Assembly (NCBI RefSeq): GCF_000817735.3
Contig: NZ_JTJC03000004.1
Location: forward strand, 310,001 to 374,000
DNA: 64,000 bases
Origin: Scytonema millei VB511283
GTDB taxonomy: Bacteria > Cyanobacteriota > Cyanobacteriia > Cyanobacteriales > Chroococcidiopsidaceae
Direction: 5' to 3'
The notes under the pieces are model-generated. The model was not told the DNA's origin and did not search any database. It was given only the letters and a program-made list of their open reading frames with translations. The translations under genes and the position numbers were made by a program. Below, in pieces: positions 35,411 to 46,540 of the stretch; within the stretch, counting starts at the first letter, position 1; each line of letters starts with the position of its first letter.

Positions 35411-35545
35411 GGGAGCAGGGAGTAGGGAGCAGGGAGTAGGGGGACAAGGGAGAGAAGTCGTAAGTCGTAAGTCGTAAGTCGTAAGTCAAACGCCTCTTGC
35501 CCCTCGCCTCTTAACAAATGACCAATGACCAATGACAAATCAAAA
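35411..35545. repeat. Heptamer repeats between devB and devC
   Basis: GGGAGCA/GGGAGTA units, TCGTAAG units (35458-35487) and ATGACCA/ATGACAA units (35517-35545). The last supply spurious in-frame starts for devC. Confidence 0.8.
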
Positions 35546-36712
35546 ATGACAAAATTTATTAAACGCAAAATTCCGTTAGCTTGGTTGCAATTGACTAGGG
35601 AAAAACCTCGTCTTATCGTCGCACTAGCTGGAATTGCTTTTGCTGATATTCTCATGTTTATGCAACTGGCTTTTCAGCAAGCTTTATTTGATAGTAACGT
35701 ACGTTTGCATTCTAGTTTAGATGGCGAAATTGTCTTAATTAATCCTCAATCTAACGCCATCAATTTTTTAGAAAGCTTCTCTCAAAGACGCTTATATCAA
35801 ACTTTAGCACTTTCAGAAGTTGCGTCAGTACATCCGATCTATTTAGGCTTGACTGAATGGAAAAACCCCGAGACTAGAGCGCTGGCTGAGGTTTTAGTGA
35901 TTGGAACTAATCCTAGAGATAAAGTTTTCAATTTACCAGGGGTACAGCAAAATATAGAAAAAATTAAATTGCCCGATGTCGTCCTTTTCGATCGCGGCTC
36001 TCGACCGGAGTTTGGCGCGATCGCATCTGAGTTCGAGCAAGGAAAAAAGATTACAGCCGAGGTAGGCGGACGACGGATTAAAGTAGGAGGAATAGCTGAG
36101 TTAGGAGCATCTTTTGGTTCTGATGGTAATTTAATTACTAGCGACCAAAATTTTTTGCGCTTATTTAAAAACCGAAAATATGGCTTAATCGATCTAGGCG
36201 TTATTAAATTAAAACCAGCGGCAAATGCTGAGGTAGTTTTAGAAAAGCTGCGGCAATATTTACCGGATGATGTCAAAGTCTTCTCTAAACAAGAATTTGT
36301 CGATTACGAGAAAGATTACTGGGCGCGCAGTACTCCAATTGGGTTTATCTTTACACTGGGAACAATTATGGGTTTCATTGTCGGAACTGTAATTGTTTAT
36401 CAAATTCTTTATAGTGAGGTTTCCGACCATTTATCTGAATATGCTACTTTAAAAGCGATGGGGTATACGCAAACCTATTTATTGTTAGTCGTTTTTCAAG
36501 AAGCTTTGATCTTAGCCAGTTTAGGTTATGTACCAGGATTTGCTTTTGCAATTTTACAATACAATTTAGCTAGAAATGCAACTCTATTGCCAATTTTTAT
36601 GACTGCTAGTCGAGCAGTTATGGTATTTTTATTAACGGTTCTCATGTGTTTTATTTCCGGTTTTATTGCCGTGCGTAAACTACGGTCTGCCGATCCAGCA
36701 GATATTTTCTAG
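35546..36712 (+). CDS. devC: DevC-type ABC exporter permease
   Basis: 388 residues from the ATG at 35546. FtsX/MacB-like topology: an N-terminal helix in PRLIVALAGIAFADILMFMQLAFQQALF, a large extracytoplasmic domain (about 45-265), then three membrane helices near 272-298, 320-345 and 355-378, ending FIAVRKLRSADPADIF. The GTVIVYQILYSEVSDHLSEYATLKAMGYTQ loop is the DevC hallmark. An upstream ATG at 35525 falls in ATGACCA repeat DNA and adds MTNDKSK, which I consider spurious. It acts with DevB and DevA. Confidence 0.9.
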   Translation: MTKFIKRKIPLAWLQLTREKPRLIVALAGIAFADILMFMQLAFQQALFDSNVRLHSSLDGEIVLINPQSNAINFLESFSQRRLYQTLALSEVASVHPIYLGLTEWKNPETRALAEVLVIGTNPRDKVFNLPGVQQNIEKIKLPDVVLFDRGSRPEFGAIASEFEQGKKITAEVGGRRIKVGGIAELGASFGSDGNLITSDQNFLRLFKNRKYGLIDLGVIKLKPAANAEVVLEKLRQYLPDDVKVFSKQEFVDYEKDYWARSTPIGFIFTLGTIMGFIVGTVIVYQILYSEVSDHLSEYATLKAMGYTQTYLLLVVFQEALILASLGYVPGFAFAILQYNLARNATLLPIFMTASRAVMVFLLTVLMCFISGFIAVRKLRSADPADIF

Positions 36713-36714
36713 TA

Positions 36715-36817
36715 GATCCCCTCAACCCCCCTTAGAAAGGGAGGCTAAGAGAGATTCTCAATTGCAAAGAGAAACCAAGAGAGTTTCCCCCTTTTTAAGG
36801 GGGACGGAAGGGGGATC
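36715..36817. repeat. GATC-bounded palindromic element between devC and devA
   Basis: Begins GATCCCCTCAACCCCCCTTA and ends AAGGGGGACGGAAGGGGGATC, so the outer arms are inverted. The centre holds a second pair, ATTCTCAATTGC and its near-direct partner. It occupies almost the whole devC-devA gap and would form a long hairpin in the operon transcript. Confidence 0.75.
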
Positions 36818-36836
36818 TAATATAGGGAGCGAGTAA

Positions 36837-37511
36837 ATGAAAGAACCTGCGATCGCTATCCATAATCTCAATCACTACTATGGTAAAGGGGCGCTGAGAA
36901 AGCAGATATTATTTGATATTAATTTAGAGATTCACGCTGGAGAAATTACCCTGGTGACTGGAGCATCAGGATCGGGAAAGACAACATTACTGACTTTAAT
37001 TGGTTGTTTGCGTTCCGTGCAAGAAGGAAGTTTAAAAATTTTAGGTAAAGAACTTTTGGGTACGAGCGAAAAACAACTAGTCAAATTTCGTCGGCAGATT
37101 GGTTATATCTTTCAAGCTCATAATTTATTAGGATTTTTAACAGCAAAACAAAACGTACAAATGTCAGTTGAATTAGATTGCGAGCTATCTCCATCAGCCG
37201 CTGAGGCTAGATCGAAAGCTATATTACAAACTGTAGGTTTAGCTCATCGAATTGATTACTATCCAGACAATCTTTCTGGAGGACAAAAACAACGAGTTGC
37301 GATCGCCCGTGCTTTGGTCAATCATCCAAAAATTGTCCTCGCAGACGAACCTACAGCTGCATTGGACAAGCAATCGGGACGCGATGTCGTCGAACTCATG
37401 CAATCTCTAGCTAAAGAACAGGGATGTACGATTTTGATGGTGACTCACGACAACAGAATTCTCGATATTGCCGATCGCATAATTGACATGGAAGACGGTC
37501 GTTTAACCTAA
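36837..37511 (+). CDS. devA: DevA-type ABC exporter ATP-binding protein
   Basis: 224-residue ATPase of the MacB/LolD type. Walker A is TGASGSGKTTLLTLIG, the Q-loop YIFQAHNLLGFLTAKQNV, the ABC signature LSGGQKQRVAIARALV, and Walker B IVLADEPTAALD. It also has the H-loop MVTHDNRI. All catalytic residues are present. It is the third gene of the DevBCA exporter. The 20-base spacer from the preceding palindrome contains GGGAG close to the ATG. Confidence 0.93.
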   Translation: MKEPAIAIHNLNHYYGKGALRKQILFDINLEIHAGEITLVTGASGSGKTTLLTLIGCLRSVQEGSLKILGKELLGTSEKQLVKFRRQIGYIFQAHNLLGFLTAKQNVQMSVELDCELSPSAAEARSKAILQTVGLAHRIDYYPDNLSGGQKQRVAIARALVNHPKIVLADEPTAALDKQSGRDVVELMQSLAKEQGCTILMVTHDNRILDIADRIIDMEDGRLT

Positions 37512-40898: not shown

Positions 40899-41786
40899 CT
40901 ATTCGCCAAACCTTGGCTCATTACCCATTTCCGTTCTCAATCTCTGTTCTAAATTTTGCAGATCTAAGCCTAAATTTCTCAATACTATTACTCCCATGCC
41001 TTGCCCTTCACGGAGAATTCCTAATAATAAATGTTCCGTGCCAATATGCCGATGTTTGAATTCTCGCGCCTGTTGCAGTGCAAGTTCTAAACACTGCTTT
41101 GCCCTTGGGGTAAAGGGAATTTCTGGTGGCGAACCCGTACCTCTACCAATTCTTTTTTCTACTTCAACTCTAGTATTCTCAAAATTAACTCCCATTGAAG
41201 TCAGAATTCTTGCAGTCATTCCACTTTGTTCGCCAATTATGCCCAGTAATAACTGTTCTGTACCAATGTAATGATGTTTCAAGCGCTTAGCTTCATATTG
41301 AGCTAGAATAATTGCTTGAATTGCCTGTTGAGTAAATCTTTCAAATCCTATAGGTAAGGCAACTCGATCGAAAATACTGCCAAAAAAACCTTCTAGCGAT
41401 CGCAAAAATCCTTCAAACATAAATCCTCCATAAGTAGATTCATTTTGAATTAGTTCCGCAGATGAGTATGTTTCATCTGCTTTTGAGGTACGTTGGCGAA
41501 TACTGCAACCGTTGTACAAAAAGGACAATAAATCTTCCATCGTTGCAGCATTGGCAGAATACCAAAGAAATTGTTTATCTCTCTTAGCATTTACTAAACC
41601 TTCATGCCGTAACTTTTCCAAATGGTGTGAAAGGGTGGAATTGGGAATATTCAGCACCGCTTGAATCTCCCCTACTGTCCTTCCTTCTGGATAAGCAGCA
41701 AACAGCGATCGCATAATCTCCAGCCGAGGTTCCGATCCCAGTGCCGCAAAAATATCTGCGTACTGAGCTGTCTCTTTATTTTCCAT
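40899..41786 (-). CDS. ArsR-type winged-helix regulator fused to Clp N-domain
   Basis: 295 residues with an unusual fusion. Residues 1-95 form an ArsR-like winged helix: FAALGSEPRLEIMRSLF, then VGEIQAVLNIPNSTLSHHLEKLRHEGLV. No Cys metal-binding pair is present in the recognition helix. A linker of about 45 residues follows. Residues 145-295 are a Clp_N domain with both repeats, FTQQAIQAIILAQYEAKRLK with HYIGTEQLLLGII, and FTPRAKQCLELALQQAREFK with HRHIGTEHLLLGIL. No AAA+ ATPase part is present. The Clp_N half is like that of ClpC, which binds adaptors and McsB-type marks. The protein may couple DNA binding to proteostasis signals; that is inference. Confidence 0.85.
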   Translation of the reverse strand: MENKETAQYADIFAALGSEPRLEIMRSLFAAYPEGRTVGEIQAVLNIPNSTLSHHLEKLRHEGLVNAKRDKQFLWYSANAATMEDLLSFLYNGCSIRQRTSKADETYSSAELIQNESTYGGFMFEGFLRSLEGFFGSIFDRVALPIGFERFTQQAIQAIILAQYEAKRLKHHYIGTEQLLLGIIGEQSGMTARILTSMGVNFENTRVEVEKRIGRGTGSPPEIPFTPRAKQCLELALQQAREFKHRHIGTEHLLLGILREGQGMGVIVLRNLGLDLQNLEQRLRTEMGNEPRFGE

Positions 41787-41858
41787 ATTTCTAGTTTAAT
41801 CGAAATGAAAAGAATGTCAATTAAAGGTTCTCCACACACATCAGTAACAGGGCATTAT

Positions 41859-42194
41859 CTAAAGATACTCAATCCATCCTTTCATCTCATCAGGAGTCAG
41901 CACCTCGTAAATCAGAATCAAGCTACGAATAATCTCTCCGAGAGTGCGAACATCCTTTTTACAAAAAGCAATACCCCAATGCTCTGTGGTTTGACTGGCA
42001 ATTTTGAGGAAATCCGTATCGTACGTTACAATAATACGCCCTTGCTGACAAGCAAATGCTAATTGTGCCTCATCTGTTTGTCCCCTTAACCCCATCTCTA
42101 CTGTCGTTGTGACATCAATCAATTGACGGCGTAGAGCTAGAGCAATATCAGGATCGACGTTTTCATCCAAATGGAAACGAATGCGGTTACTCAC
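41859..42194 (-). CDS. DUF5615 PIN-like toxin
   Basis: 111 residues with a PIN-like nuclease fold of the DUF5615 type. Acidic residues expected for metal binding are in RFHLDENVDPDIA and in IVTYDTDFLKIA. Its start overlaps the end of the DUF433 gene by 8 bp (42187-42194), so the two are translationally coupled. DUF433-DUF5615 pairs are recognised as putative type II toxin-antitoxin modules in cyanobacteria. RNase activity is by family and not shown. Confidence 0.82.
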   Translation of the reverse strand: MSNRIRFHLDENVDPDIALALRRQLIDVTTTVEMGLRGQTDEAQLAFACQQGRIIVTYDTDFLKIASQTTEHWGIAFCKKDVRTLGEIIRSLILIYEVLTPDEMKGWIEYL

Positions 42195-42498
42195 CTCTCA
42201 AAGCCTTCAGCTTTGCTTGTAGTCTAGAAGGACGACTGTGCATCAAAGCATTGACAAATGCTTCATCTGCCTGCATTTGCTGCTCGATTTCGGCTTGGCG
42301 ATCGTAGTAATATGCCATTGCTGCATAAACAGATGCTAAGGGGAGATCGTACTTACCTGCAATTAATTCCAATGACTGTCCCATCTGCAAATACATCATG
42401 GCAATATCTGCCACTGTGATGCGGGTTCCAGCAATTCTTGGCTTTCCACCCCGTATTTCTGGTGTAATTTCGATGTACCGATTCAGTGTAACTTCCAT
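42187..42498 (-). CDS. DUF433 antitoxin-like protein
   Basis: 103 residues. The DUF433 core is ITPEIRGGKPRIAGTRITVADIAMMYLQMG, followed by a second helix-turn-helix-like part YDLPLASVYAAMAYYYDRQAEIEQQM. It precedes and overlaps the DUF5615 gene, the usual antitoxin-first order. The C-terminal helical tail (about 70-103) would be the toxin-binding part. It begins 9 bp after the pyrB stop on the same strand, so the module may be read from the pyrB transcript as well as its own promoter. Confidence 0.82.
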   Translation of the reverse strand: MEVTLNRYIEITPEIRGGKPRIAGTRITVADIAMMYLQMGQSLELIAGKYDLPLASVYAAMAYYYDRQAEIEQQMQADEAFVNALMHSRPSRLQAKLKALRGE

Positions 42499-45870: not shown

Positions 45871-45906
45871 AAATGTAGAGACGTGACATGTCACGTCTCT
45901 ACATTT
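45871..45906. terminator. Perfect 36-base palindrome, bidirectional terminator or repeat
   Basis: The halves AAATGTAGAGACGTGACA and TGTCACGTCTCTACATTT are exact inverses with no loop. It lies between convergent ispH and the SufR-like gene and covers the last codons of the latter (stop at 45899-45901). GTAGAGACG...CGTCTCTAC palindromes are widespread in large cyanobacterial genomes, so it is probably a dispersed element used as a terminator. No long T-run follows. Confidence 0.7.
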
Positions 45907-46540
45907 GATTGATTCGATATACACAACGCCGTTCGCCTGCAATTAAATGTTCGGTACGCGCGATCGCCACGTCTTCACCTAGAGTCGATTGAAAGACTTC
46001 TAGTTCTTGGCTGCAAAGTCCCGTGCAAGCTGTGGCGGCGGCGCAGATCGGGCAGTGGTTTTCAATGAATAGAAATGAGCCATCTGAGAGCGATTCAACG
46101 TCTGCCATATACCCCTCATCGGTACGTAGGTTTGCTAGGGCTTCTAGTCGCTGCTGAATACTGCTAGTGGTATGAATCTGCTCTTGATATGCTTCAATTT
46201 GTTGGCGAGTTCTAATTTCTAACAGCCGTTCTAATCCCTCCGATCCAAAAGCTTCTGTGACTGAATTGATTAGGCTTAGCGTTAACTCGGCATAACCATG
46301 AGGGAAAAAGCGATCGGCTGCGGGGGTGAGTTGCCACAACTTCGCCGGACGACCCATCGCCCGTTGTTCTTCCTGATAGGTGACTAATTGCTCTTTTTGC
46401 AGTGCATATAAATGTTGTCGCACTGCCATTGCAGAAATTTTAAAGTGAGAAGCAAGCGCAGCAGCATCCATCGCTCCTTCTTGTTTCAGCAGCTTGACGA
46501 TCGCCCGTCTTGTACGAATGTTTTGATTTGATGGCTTCAT
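45899..46540 (-). CDS. SufR-like iron-sulfur winged-helix regulator
   Basis: 213 residues. The N-terminal winged helix reads RRAIVKLLKQEGAMDAAALASHFKISAMAVRQHLYAL, followed by MGRPAKLWQLT, as in SufR. The C-terminal part ends NHCPICAAATACTGLCSQELEVF and GERRCVYRI, giving four or five cysteines for a cluster. Classical SufR, repressor of the suf operon, has fewer Cys in the first block and sits divergent to sufB. Here no suf gene is near, so this is a paralogue or a moved copy. Its target is unknown; the next gene upstream on the other strand is ridA. Confidence 0.72.
   Translation of the reverse strand: MKPSNQNIRTRRAIVKLLKQEGAMDAAALASHFKISAMAVRQHLYALQKEQLVTYQEEQRAMGRPAKLWQLTPAADRFFPHGYAELTLSLINSVTEAFGSEGLERLLEIRTRQQIEAYQEQIHTTSSIQQRLEALANLRTDEGYMADVESLSDGSFLFIENHCPICAAATACTGLCSQELEVFQSTLGEDVAIARTEHLIAGERRCVYRINQM

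Follow-up and report, generated by a model that had tools for sequence, protein, structure and literature searches.

A cyanobacterial ArsR–Clp_N fusion protein with a predicted operator at its own promoter and a conserved internal start codon

The open reading frame at positions 40899–41786 (minus strand) of the window, a 64,000-nucleotide stretch of the Scytonema millei VB511283 genome, encodes a true fusion of an ArsR-type winged helix and a ClpC-type N-domain (Clp_N). With slightly less than even confidence, we favor the interpretation that this protein, whose framework is an arsenic-operon type of repressor, acts on its own as both a sensor of and a decoy for whatever binds the ClpC N-domain. 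The initial annotation of the window had missed a predicted operator and promoter (41787–41820), a second translation start with its own ribosome-binding site (41418–41429), and the kinship of the fusion with arsenic-operon repressors. The ArsR–Clp_N assembly is new, and the gene probably gives two products.

The full-length fusion comprises 295 residues and was delineated by its ORF, which begins with ATG, and by Pfam, NCBIfam and structure matches. Pfam assigned HTH_20 (1.2e-11) and HTH_5/arsR (4.9e-10), both above cut-off, and Clp_N (2.9e-28), the latter as two matched stretches. The NCBIfam model NF033788 (ArsR/SmtB) scored 63.5 bits at a cut-off of 55; the winged helix-turn-helix of this family is thus present. 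It covers residues 10–91 approximately (41514–41759, minus strand), and in the AlphaFold model the helices and the wing span residues 3–92. The model consists of two well-defined domains joined by a linker of low pLDDT, which is under 50 for residues 98–146 (41349–41495, minus strand); within this linker the model places a helix at residues 125–141. The two-repeat ClpC-type N-domain follows at residues 148–289 (40920–41345, minus strand), as deduced from Pfam, structure matches and Foldseek. Its closest solved relative by sequence is the N-domain of Arabidopsis ClpC1 (5gui), which aligns to residues 148–284 (3.3e-48). In agreement with this match, a Foldseek search with the predicted model ranked the ClpC1 N-domain first, with 56% identity. 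AAA+ ATPase modules are absent, the ORF stopping after Clp_N. Because the flanking genes of the window encode a three-GAF protein on one side and a DUF5615 protein on the other, no ATPase follows the chain. The Pfam, NCBIfam and 5gui matches thus agree with the initial annotation, which had described a DNA-binding winged helix and a complete two-repeat Clp_N domain on one chain without an ATPase.

That annotation had also proposed a survey of domain architectures, and had allowed for two separate genes joined by a sequence error or for a fusion found in no relative. A sequence error is ruled out, because the same architecture occurs in one frame in 25 copies from 24 cyanobacterial genomes. These full-length fusions, which resemble that of the window, are designated subfamily A; the other 24 copies are 48–92% identical to the window protein. 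They were collected from overlapping draws of genomes, namely 6 of 291 genomes of the class, 20 of 388 of the order (21 copies) and, from the orders to which G053 and G276 belong, 1 of 36 and 3 of 42 genomes, respectively. Combined, the draws give 24 genomes and 25 copies. Seven divergent relatives (L172–L178), all from family f58, form subfamily B; Pfam was run on three of these proteins. In a profile search of a phylum draw of 292 genomes, four genomes gave matches with an E-value of 1e-65 or better; all were from the order of the window, and one match belonged to subfamily B. Within the window's own family the fusion is found in 11 of 19 genomes, some of the other eight being incomplete. 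Furthermore, two decayed copies were detected: the reading frame is broken in L138, and L142 retains the operator and a linker remnant, followed by an ORF that looks transposon-like by eye. The patchy distribution and these relics indicate that the fusion is patchily kept and dispensable, as judged from the genomes sampled. No record among 72,556 plasmid and 50,697 phage records carried at least 80% of the protein, and six short peptide patterns did not find the fusion on viral contigs. As a probe for spread beyond cyanobacteria, the same six patterns were applied to genome contigs; this insensitive scan gave four loci, none of them an ArsR fusion.

No constant genomic partner was found across the 25 neighborhoods. 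A pyrB gene, named by eye from a Pfam carbamoyltransferase match, lies near the fusion in six of them, and an agmatinase–pyrH–frr group (names by eye) in seven. In the window, a DUF5615/DUF433 gene pair (41859–42498), which we take to be toxin–antitoxin-like, sits between pyrB and the fusion. The neighborhood of L062 resembles this order, and in L063 pyrB is located directly upstream of the fusion. The window further contains a SufR-like regulator (45899–46540, minus strand), whose score of 142.4 bits is under the NCBIfam SufR cut-off of 178.8, and ABC exporter genes for a DevC permease and a DevA-family ATPase (35525–37511, plus strand).

The fusion gene is preceded by an imperfect palindrome, ATTTCGATTAAACTAGAAAT (41787–41806, minus strand), which was recognized by eye in the upstream regions and then by its sequence pattern, and which touches the ATG. 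The 20-bp consensus of this predicted operator is ATTTCGATTATTCTAGAAAT, and it is present upstream of all 25 subfamily A copies. In 22 of them it directly abuts the ATG; the distance is 24 bases in L071 and 3 in L082, and in L084 the counted operator is 30 bases away, a nearer copy having a mismatch to the pattern. For upstream regions of the fusions, as well as of the stand-alone repressors and subfamily B described below, start codons were picked by the position of the conserved domain. A predicted -10 box read from the sequence, TAAACT (41793–41798, minus strand), lies within the operator, and across the copies the predicted -10 box is the middle of the operator. The predicted -35 box, TTGACA (41815–41820, minus strand), is found at a spacing of 16. 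Within one mismatch, TTGACA occurs 15–18 bases upstream of the -10 box in 17 of the 25 promoters; in the other eight the best -35 hexamer has two to four mismatches. From the positions of these two boxes, the transcript would be expected to begin with the A of the ATG or immediately beside it, and we infer a leaderless message.

Since the operator pattern was drawn from the same 25 copies, independent genome-wide checks were made. The genome of the window contains one perfect site, which is that at the fusion's own promoter. With up to three mismatches, 34 sites were found, the own one included, compared to 37 for the reversed pattern; a wider regulon is hence unsupported. A slightly narrower pattern occurred in 29 of the 388 genomes of the order draw, whereas its reversed version occurred in three. 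The 29 genomes comprise all 20 fusion genomes of this draw, the two relics and seven others, in which no ORF of 50 residues or more starts just downstream. Because its sole perfect site is its own promoter, the fusion is most likely an autorepressor with few if any other targets.

Copies differ in both the length and the sequence of the linker, yet alignment column 160 within it is a start codon in all 25 (24 ATG, 1 GTG), mostly preceded by purine-rich DNA. In the window this codon is Met123 (ATG, 41418–41420, minus strand), and a Shine-Dalgarno core GGAGG (41425–41429, minus strand) ends four bases before it, so that the element reads GGAGG-ATTT-ATG. Initiation at this position would give a Clp_N-only product of 173 residues (40899–41420, minus strand). 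Such a second product is likely, because the start codon is found in 25 of 25 linkers and the Shine-Dalgarno sequence is, across the family, stronger than synonymous codons predict. The strongest competing explanation, which we nevertheless regard as unlikely, is that of a single product: the gene would encode nothing but an autorepressor that senses through Clp_N, the internal start being a relic of the gene fusion or a chance purine-rich stretch at which no translation begins. The invariance of the start codon in an otherwise variable linker speaks against it.

The mean pairing energy with the 16S tail is -8.0 kcal/mol at the 25 internal starts, compared to -2.1 in each of two control sets, one of 106 in-frame ATGs from elsewhere in these genes and one of 1246 in-frame ATGs from flanking ORFs. 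The core tetramer precedes 21 of the 25 internal starts but only 66 of the 1246 flanking ATGs; its absence from four copies is compatible with a single product. The 1246 background ATGs and the codon usage were derived from all flanking ORFs of at least 200 residues, unchecked as genes. As related copies are not independent, 13 copies with less than 75% identity were kept, for which the mean pairing was -7.5 and 11 copies were at or below -4. Pairing energy alone was rejected as proof of initiation, since alignment columns 318–321 and 248 reach similarly low means without a conserved start codon, as the single-product explanation would allow. For this reason a synonymous-codon test based on local usage was run. 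Here, the excess at columns 159–162 was the largest of all 243 columns (-3.1 to -3.5 kcal/mol, with a spread over columns of 0.66), and at column 160 it was significant among the 13 diverged copies (Fisher p 1.3e-4, Wilcoxon p 0.004). This ranking counts against a single product, although columns 248 and 100 also showed a weak excess (Wilcoxon p 0.03; Fisher p 0.09 and 0.07). Four of the 13 copies had no excess: that of the window, whose Shine-Dalgarno sequence can be explained by the amino acids alone (p 0.39) and in this respect fits a single product, L075, and L082 and L083, where pairing is weak outright. The Glu codons at the Shine-Dalgarno site, in contrast, argue against a single product: GAG is used 18 times and GAA 8 times, compared to 177 and 447 elsewhere in the genes (Fisher p 2.9e-5, the copies being related and not independent). 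In subfamily B no conserved start was found at this position.

The short product was modeled from an alignment of 23 of the 25 copies (L069 and L078 were left out) as a complete N-domain. At its N-terminus, directly behind the internal start, an amphipathic helix is predicted at residues 124–141 (41364–41417, minus strand). A shuffle test of its amphipathicity gave a median p of 0.027 across the 25 copies, with values exceeding 0.05 in L072, L073, L080 and L081. The helix has low confidence in the models of both the full-length and the short form, and a docked role is unsupported.

The binding surface of the fusion's Clp_N domain seems to be largely intact, because the equivalents of the pocket Glu, Thr, Lys and Phe residues are mostly kept. 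Residues were mapped by motif onto the positions of the phosphoarginine site. Glu177 and Glu251, which correspond to Glu32 and Glu106 of this site, and Thr226, the Thr of the second pocket, are kept in all 25 fusions. At the position equivalent to Thr7, 20 copies have Thr and 5 have Ser, and at that equivalent to Lys85, 23 have Lys. The roles of Glu32, Glu106, Thr7 and Lys85 in ligand binding by the ClpC N-domain follow the accessible portion of PMC12583610. At the positions that contact cyclomarin, Phe is found in 17 and 22 of the 25 fusions; in ClpC2, two Phe residues hold this ligand, according to the available sections of PMC10030653.

The N-domain of the ClpC unfoldase has in common with the fusion the complete two-repeat fold, the Glu residues of the phosphoarginine site and the second Thr. 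In contrast to the fusion, the unfoldase possesses AAA+ modules, and its N-domain is far less variable: the mean pairwise identity is 0.99 among 25 cyanobacterial ClpC sequences and 0.58 among the 25 fusions, a difference that may be overstated, given that the two groups do not derive from one and the same set of genomes and that similarity to the query had selected the ClpC copies. The 25 ClpC sequences comprise one from the window's own genome and 24 from the class draw, which entered as best query matches; sequences from L003, L086 and L088 were excluded, and none was obtained from L087. This difference bears on a second alternative, in which Clp_N would dock the repressor to ClpC or its adaptors, and the repressor would be destroyed or held according to the load of the Clp protease. 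The resemblance of the fusion's Clp_N to the host's own ClpC N-domain is in line with such a proteolytic switch. So is the presence in the genome of two ClpC-like ORFs along with two matches to ClpS, and the ClpC N-domain is known to bind adaptors (PMC12583610, accessible portion). However, docking on a fixed host partner fits poorly with a Clp_N domain that varies while the ClpC N-domains are near-identical, and we consider this switch rather improbable. With regard to phosphoarginine as a ligand, the arginine kinase family gave no match in the own genome, a result that carries no weight because the control likewise matched nowhere.

Other Clp_N proteins were encountered. In Tengunoibacter tsumagoiensis, an ORF of 451 residues (L041:5455–6807) joins sigma-70 regions 2 and 4 to a Clp_N repeat; its sigma-70 part is ECF-like by eye, making it another transcription factor with Clp_N. 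The same genome as that of the window fusion encodes two further Clp_N proteins without ATPase, of about 260 residues and with other C-terminal parts (L086:6754–7542, plus strand, and L086:10230–11012, minus strand).

A search with the ArsR part in 195 genomes matched 30, of which 13 contained subfamily A, seven contained subfamily B, and ten contained stand-alone ArsR proteins only. Seven of these ten were examined (L179–L185). The stand-alone relatives are ORFs of 118–151 residues without Clp_N. Some are adjoined by arsenic genes (ArsI, Acr3 and ArsC in L179, ArsD and ArsA in L185) or by an ArsP_1 permease (L181); L180, L182 and L183 look similar by eye, and no such gene was recognized for L184. 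All seven have a palindrome of the fusion-operator type that touches the ATG, with 1–7 mismatches of 20 to the consensus; the weakest, those of L180 and L185, were matched by 7 and 10 of 500 shuffles. In the ArsR tree, subfamilies A and B are together separated from the stand-alone proteins at 100/100, and subfamily A is one group at 93/91. This topology fits a single fusion event; the Clp_N tree did not resolve the origin of the fusion's Clp_N domain. The fusion and the stand-alone repressors share one winged-helix lineage and a related palindrome at the ATG, and differ in Clp_N, in the presence of arsenic genes next to some of the stand-alone proteins, and in a C-terminal Cys-Cys motif.

In arsenic-sensing ArsR proteins, this motif binds the metalloid. 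It is present in all seven stand-alone relatives examined and in none of the 25 subfamily A fusions. Given this loss, sensing has probably passed from the Cys pair to Clp_N. A third alternative would be that the fusion still senses thiols or metalloids, Clp_N being a stabilizing or dimerizing appendage. The relationship to stand-alone repressors, some of them beside arsenic genes, would be in accordance with it, and 19 of the 25 copies retain a Cys where the first of the pair would be. But the pair itself is lacking throughout, six copies have no Cys at that position either, and no arsenic gene was seen by eye among the 12 commonest neighbor clusters of the fusion, which makes this alternative improbable. 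In subfamily B, the Cys pair is kept in six of seven proteins, and an operator of the ATTTC type is absent from all seven. A peptide deformylase gene is next door or nearly so in six of seven subfamily B loci and dnaA is nearby in four, as read by eye; these neighbors were named by NCBIfam in L174 only.

Plant ClpT1 and ClpT2 are part of the Clp core and are not known to contain a DNA-binding domain. Like the predicted short form, they are free-standing proteins of the Clp_N fold. That the short product joins the Clp protease core as an accessory subunit in the manner of ClpT, the repressor only setting its dose, is very improbable, since ClpT1 and ClpT2 also match the model but at far lower rank (24–27% identity, ranks 44–46) than the ClpC1 N-domain, and the gene is missing from most cyanobacterial genomes searched, being present in only 6 of the 291 genomes of the class draw and 20 of the 388 of the order draw.

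We therefore return to the reading of the fusion as sensor and decoy, which can be outlined as follows. The long protein would be made from the leaderless message. As a dimer, it would occupy the palindrome that covers the -10 box of its gene and keep this gene nearly silent. Filling of Clp_N by a ligand, which might be an adaptor, a protein that is unfolded or carries a tag, or a ClpC-directed foreign peptide, would release the repressor from the DNA. Initiation at the internal Shine-Dalgarno start of the same message would then additionally produce Clp_N in free form, devoid of the DNA-binding part. By capturing the ligand in competition with ClpC, this short form would eventually deplete it, whereupon the long form would resume repression. 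Several observations weigh against this reading: the four diverged copies lacking a Shine-Dalgarno excess, the eight promoters with a poor -35 hexamer, the incomplete retention of Phe at the cyclomarin contacts, the lack of both the operator and a conserved internal start in subfamily B, and the dispensability indicated by patchy occurrence and decay. The initial annotation had suggested that Clp_N ties gene expression to protein quality control. It is reasonable to connect transcription with Clp_N ligands in view of the invariant phosphoarginine-site glutamates; the wider form of this suggestion is not supported, as the controlled gene is probably only the fusion's own.

A bolder version, which we regard as doubtful, would state that one gene supplies both a repressor-sensor and a decoy via a leaderless ATG and a Shine-Dalgarno ATG, that cyanobacteria, starting from an arsenic-type repressor, arrived independently at the logic of mycobacterial ClpC2, which senses and soaks up agents that attack or occupy ClpC, and that the variability of Clp_N reflects an arms race with ClpC-targeting peptides. 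If true, this logic would not be a mycobacterial oddity but would have evolved on at least two occasions around DNA-binding parts that are unrelated, which would point to ClpC-targeting agents as a widespread pressure. The fusion would furthermore illustrate clearly how a metal sensor acquires a new use when a protein-binding domain takes the place of its sensing site, and how two modes of initiation allow a single message to give rise to a regulator and its effector.

No described function was known to the initial annotation. A literature search, with subscription journals mostly outside its reach, found no paper that joins Clp_N or the ClpC N-terminal domain with ArsR; a functional parallel, which the initial annotation had missed, has, however, been described. 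According to the accessible sections of PMC10030653, mycobacterial ClpC2 is a Clp_N protein without ATPase that represses its own gene. Its operator, CGTCAAC-n5-GTTGACG, lies 1–2 bases before the ORF; the sites, often two in a row, together overlap the -35 and -10 boxes, and the message was suggested to be leaderless. Binding of cyclomarin A to the Clp_N domain lifts repression, and surplus protein sponges the ligand. An excess of ClpC2 also slows casein degradation by ClpC1P. The N-terminal part of ClpC2 is a four-helix dimerization bundle, and it is the Clp_N part to which DNA binding was attributed (PMC10030653, same sections). In the fusion, this bundle is replaced by the unrelated ArsR winged helix: the ClpC2 chains among the structure matches cover only residues 147–287, and 8ADA, the N-terminal domain of ClpC2, was not listed among them. 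A second internal start, as predicted for the fusion, is not mentioned for ClpC2 in these sections of PMC10030653. Both systems have in common a Clp_N domain without an ATPase and a start-adjacent operator that overlaps the promoter, which for the fusion is deduced from the sequence. The fusion, with its unrelated DNA-binding part, is not a ClpC2, but this anatomy suggests that it works like one.
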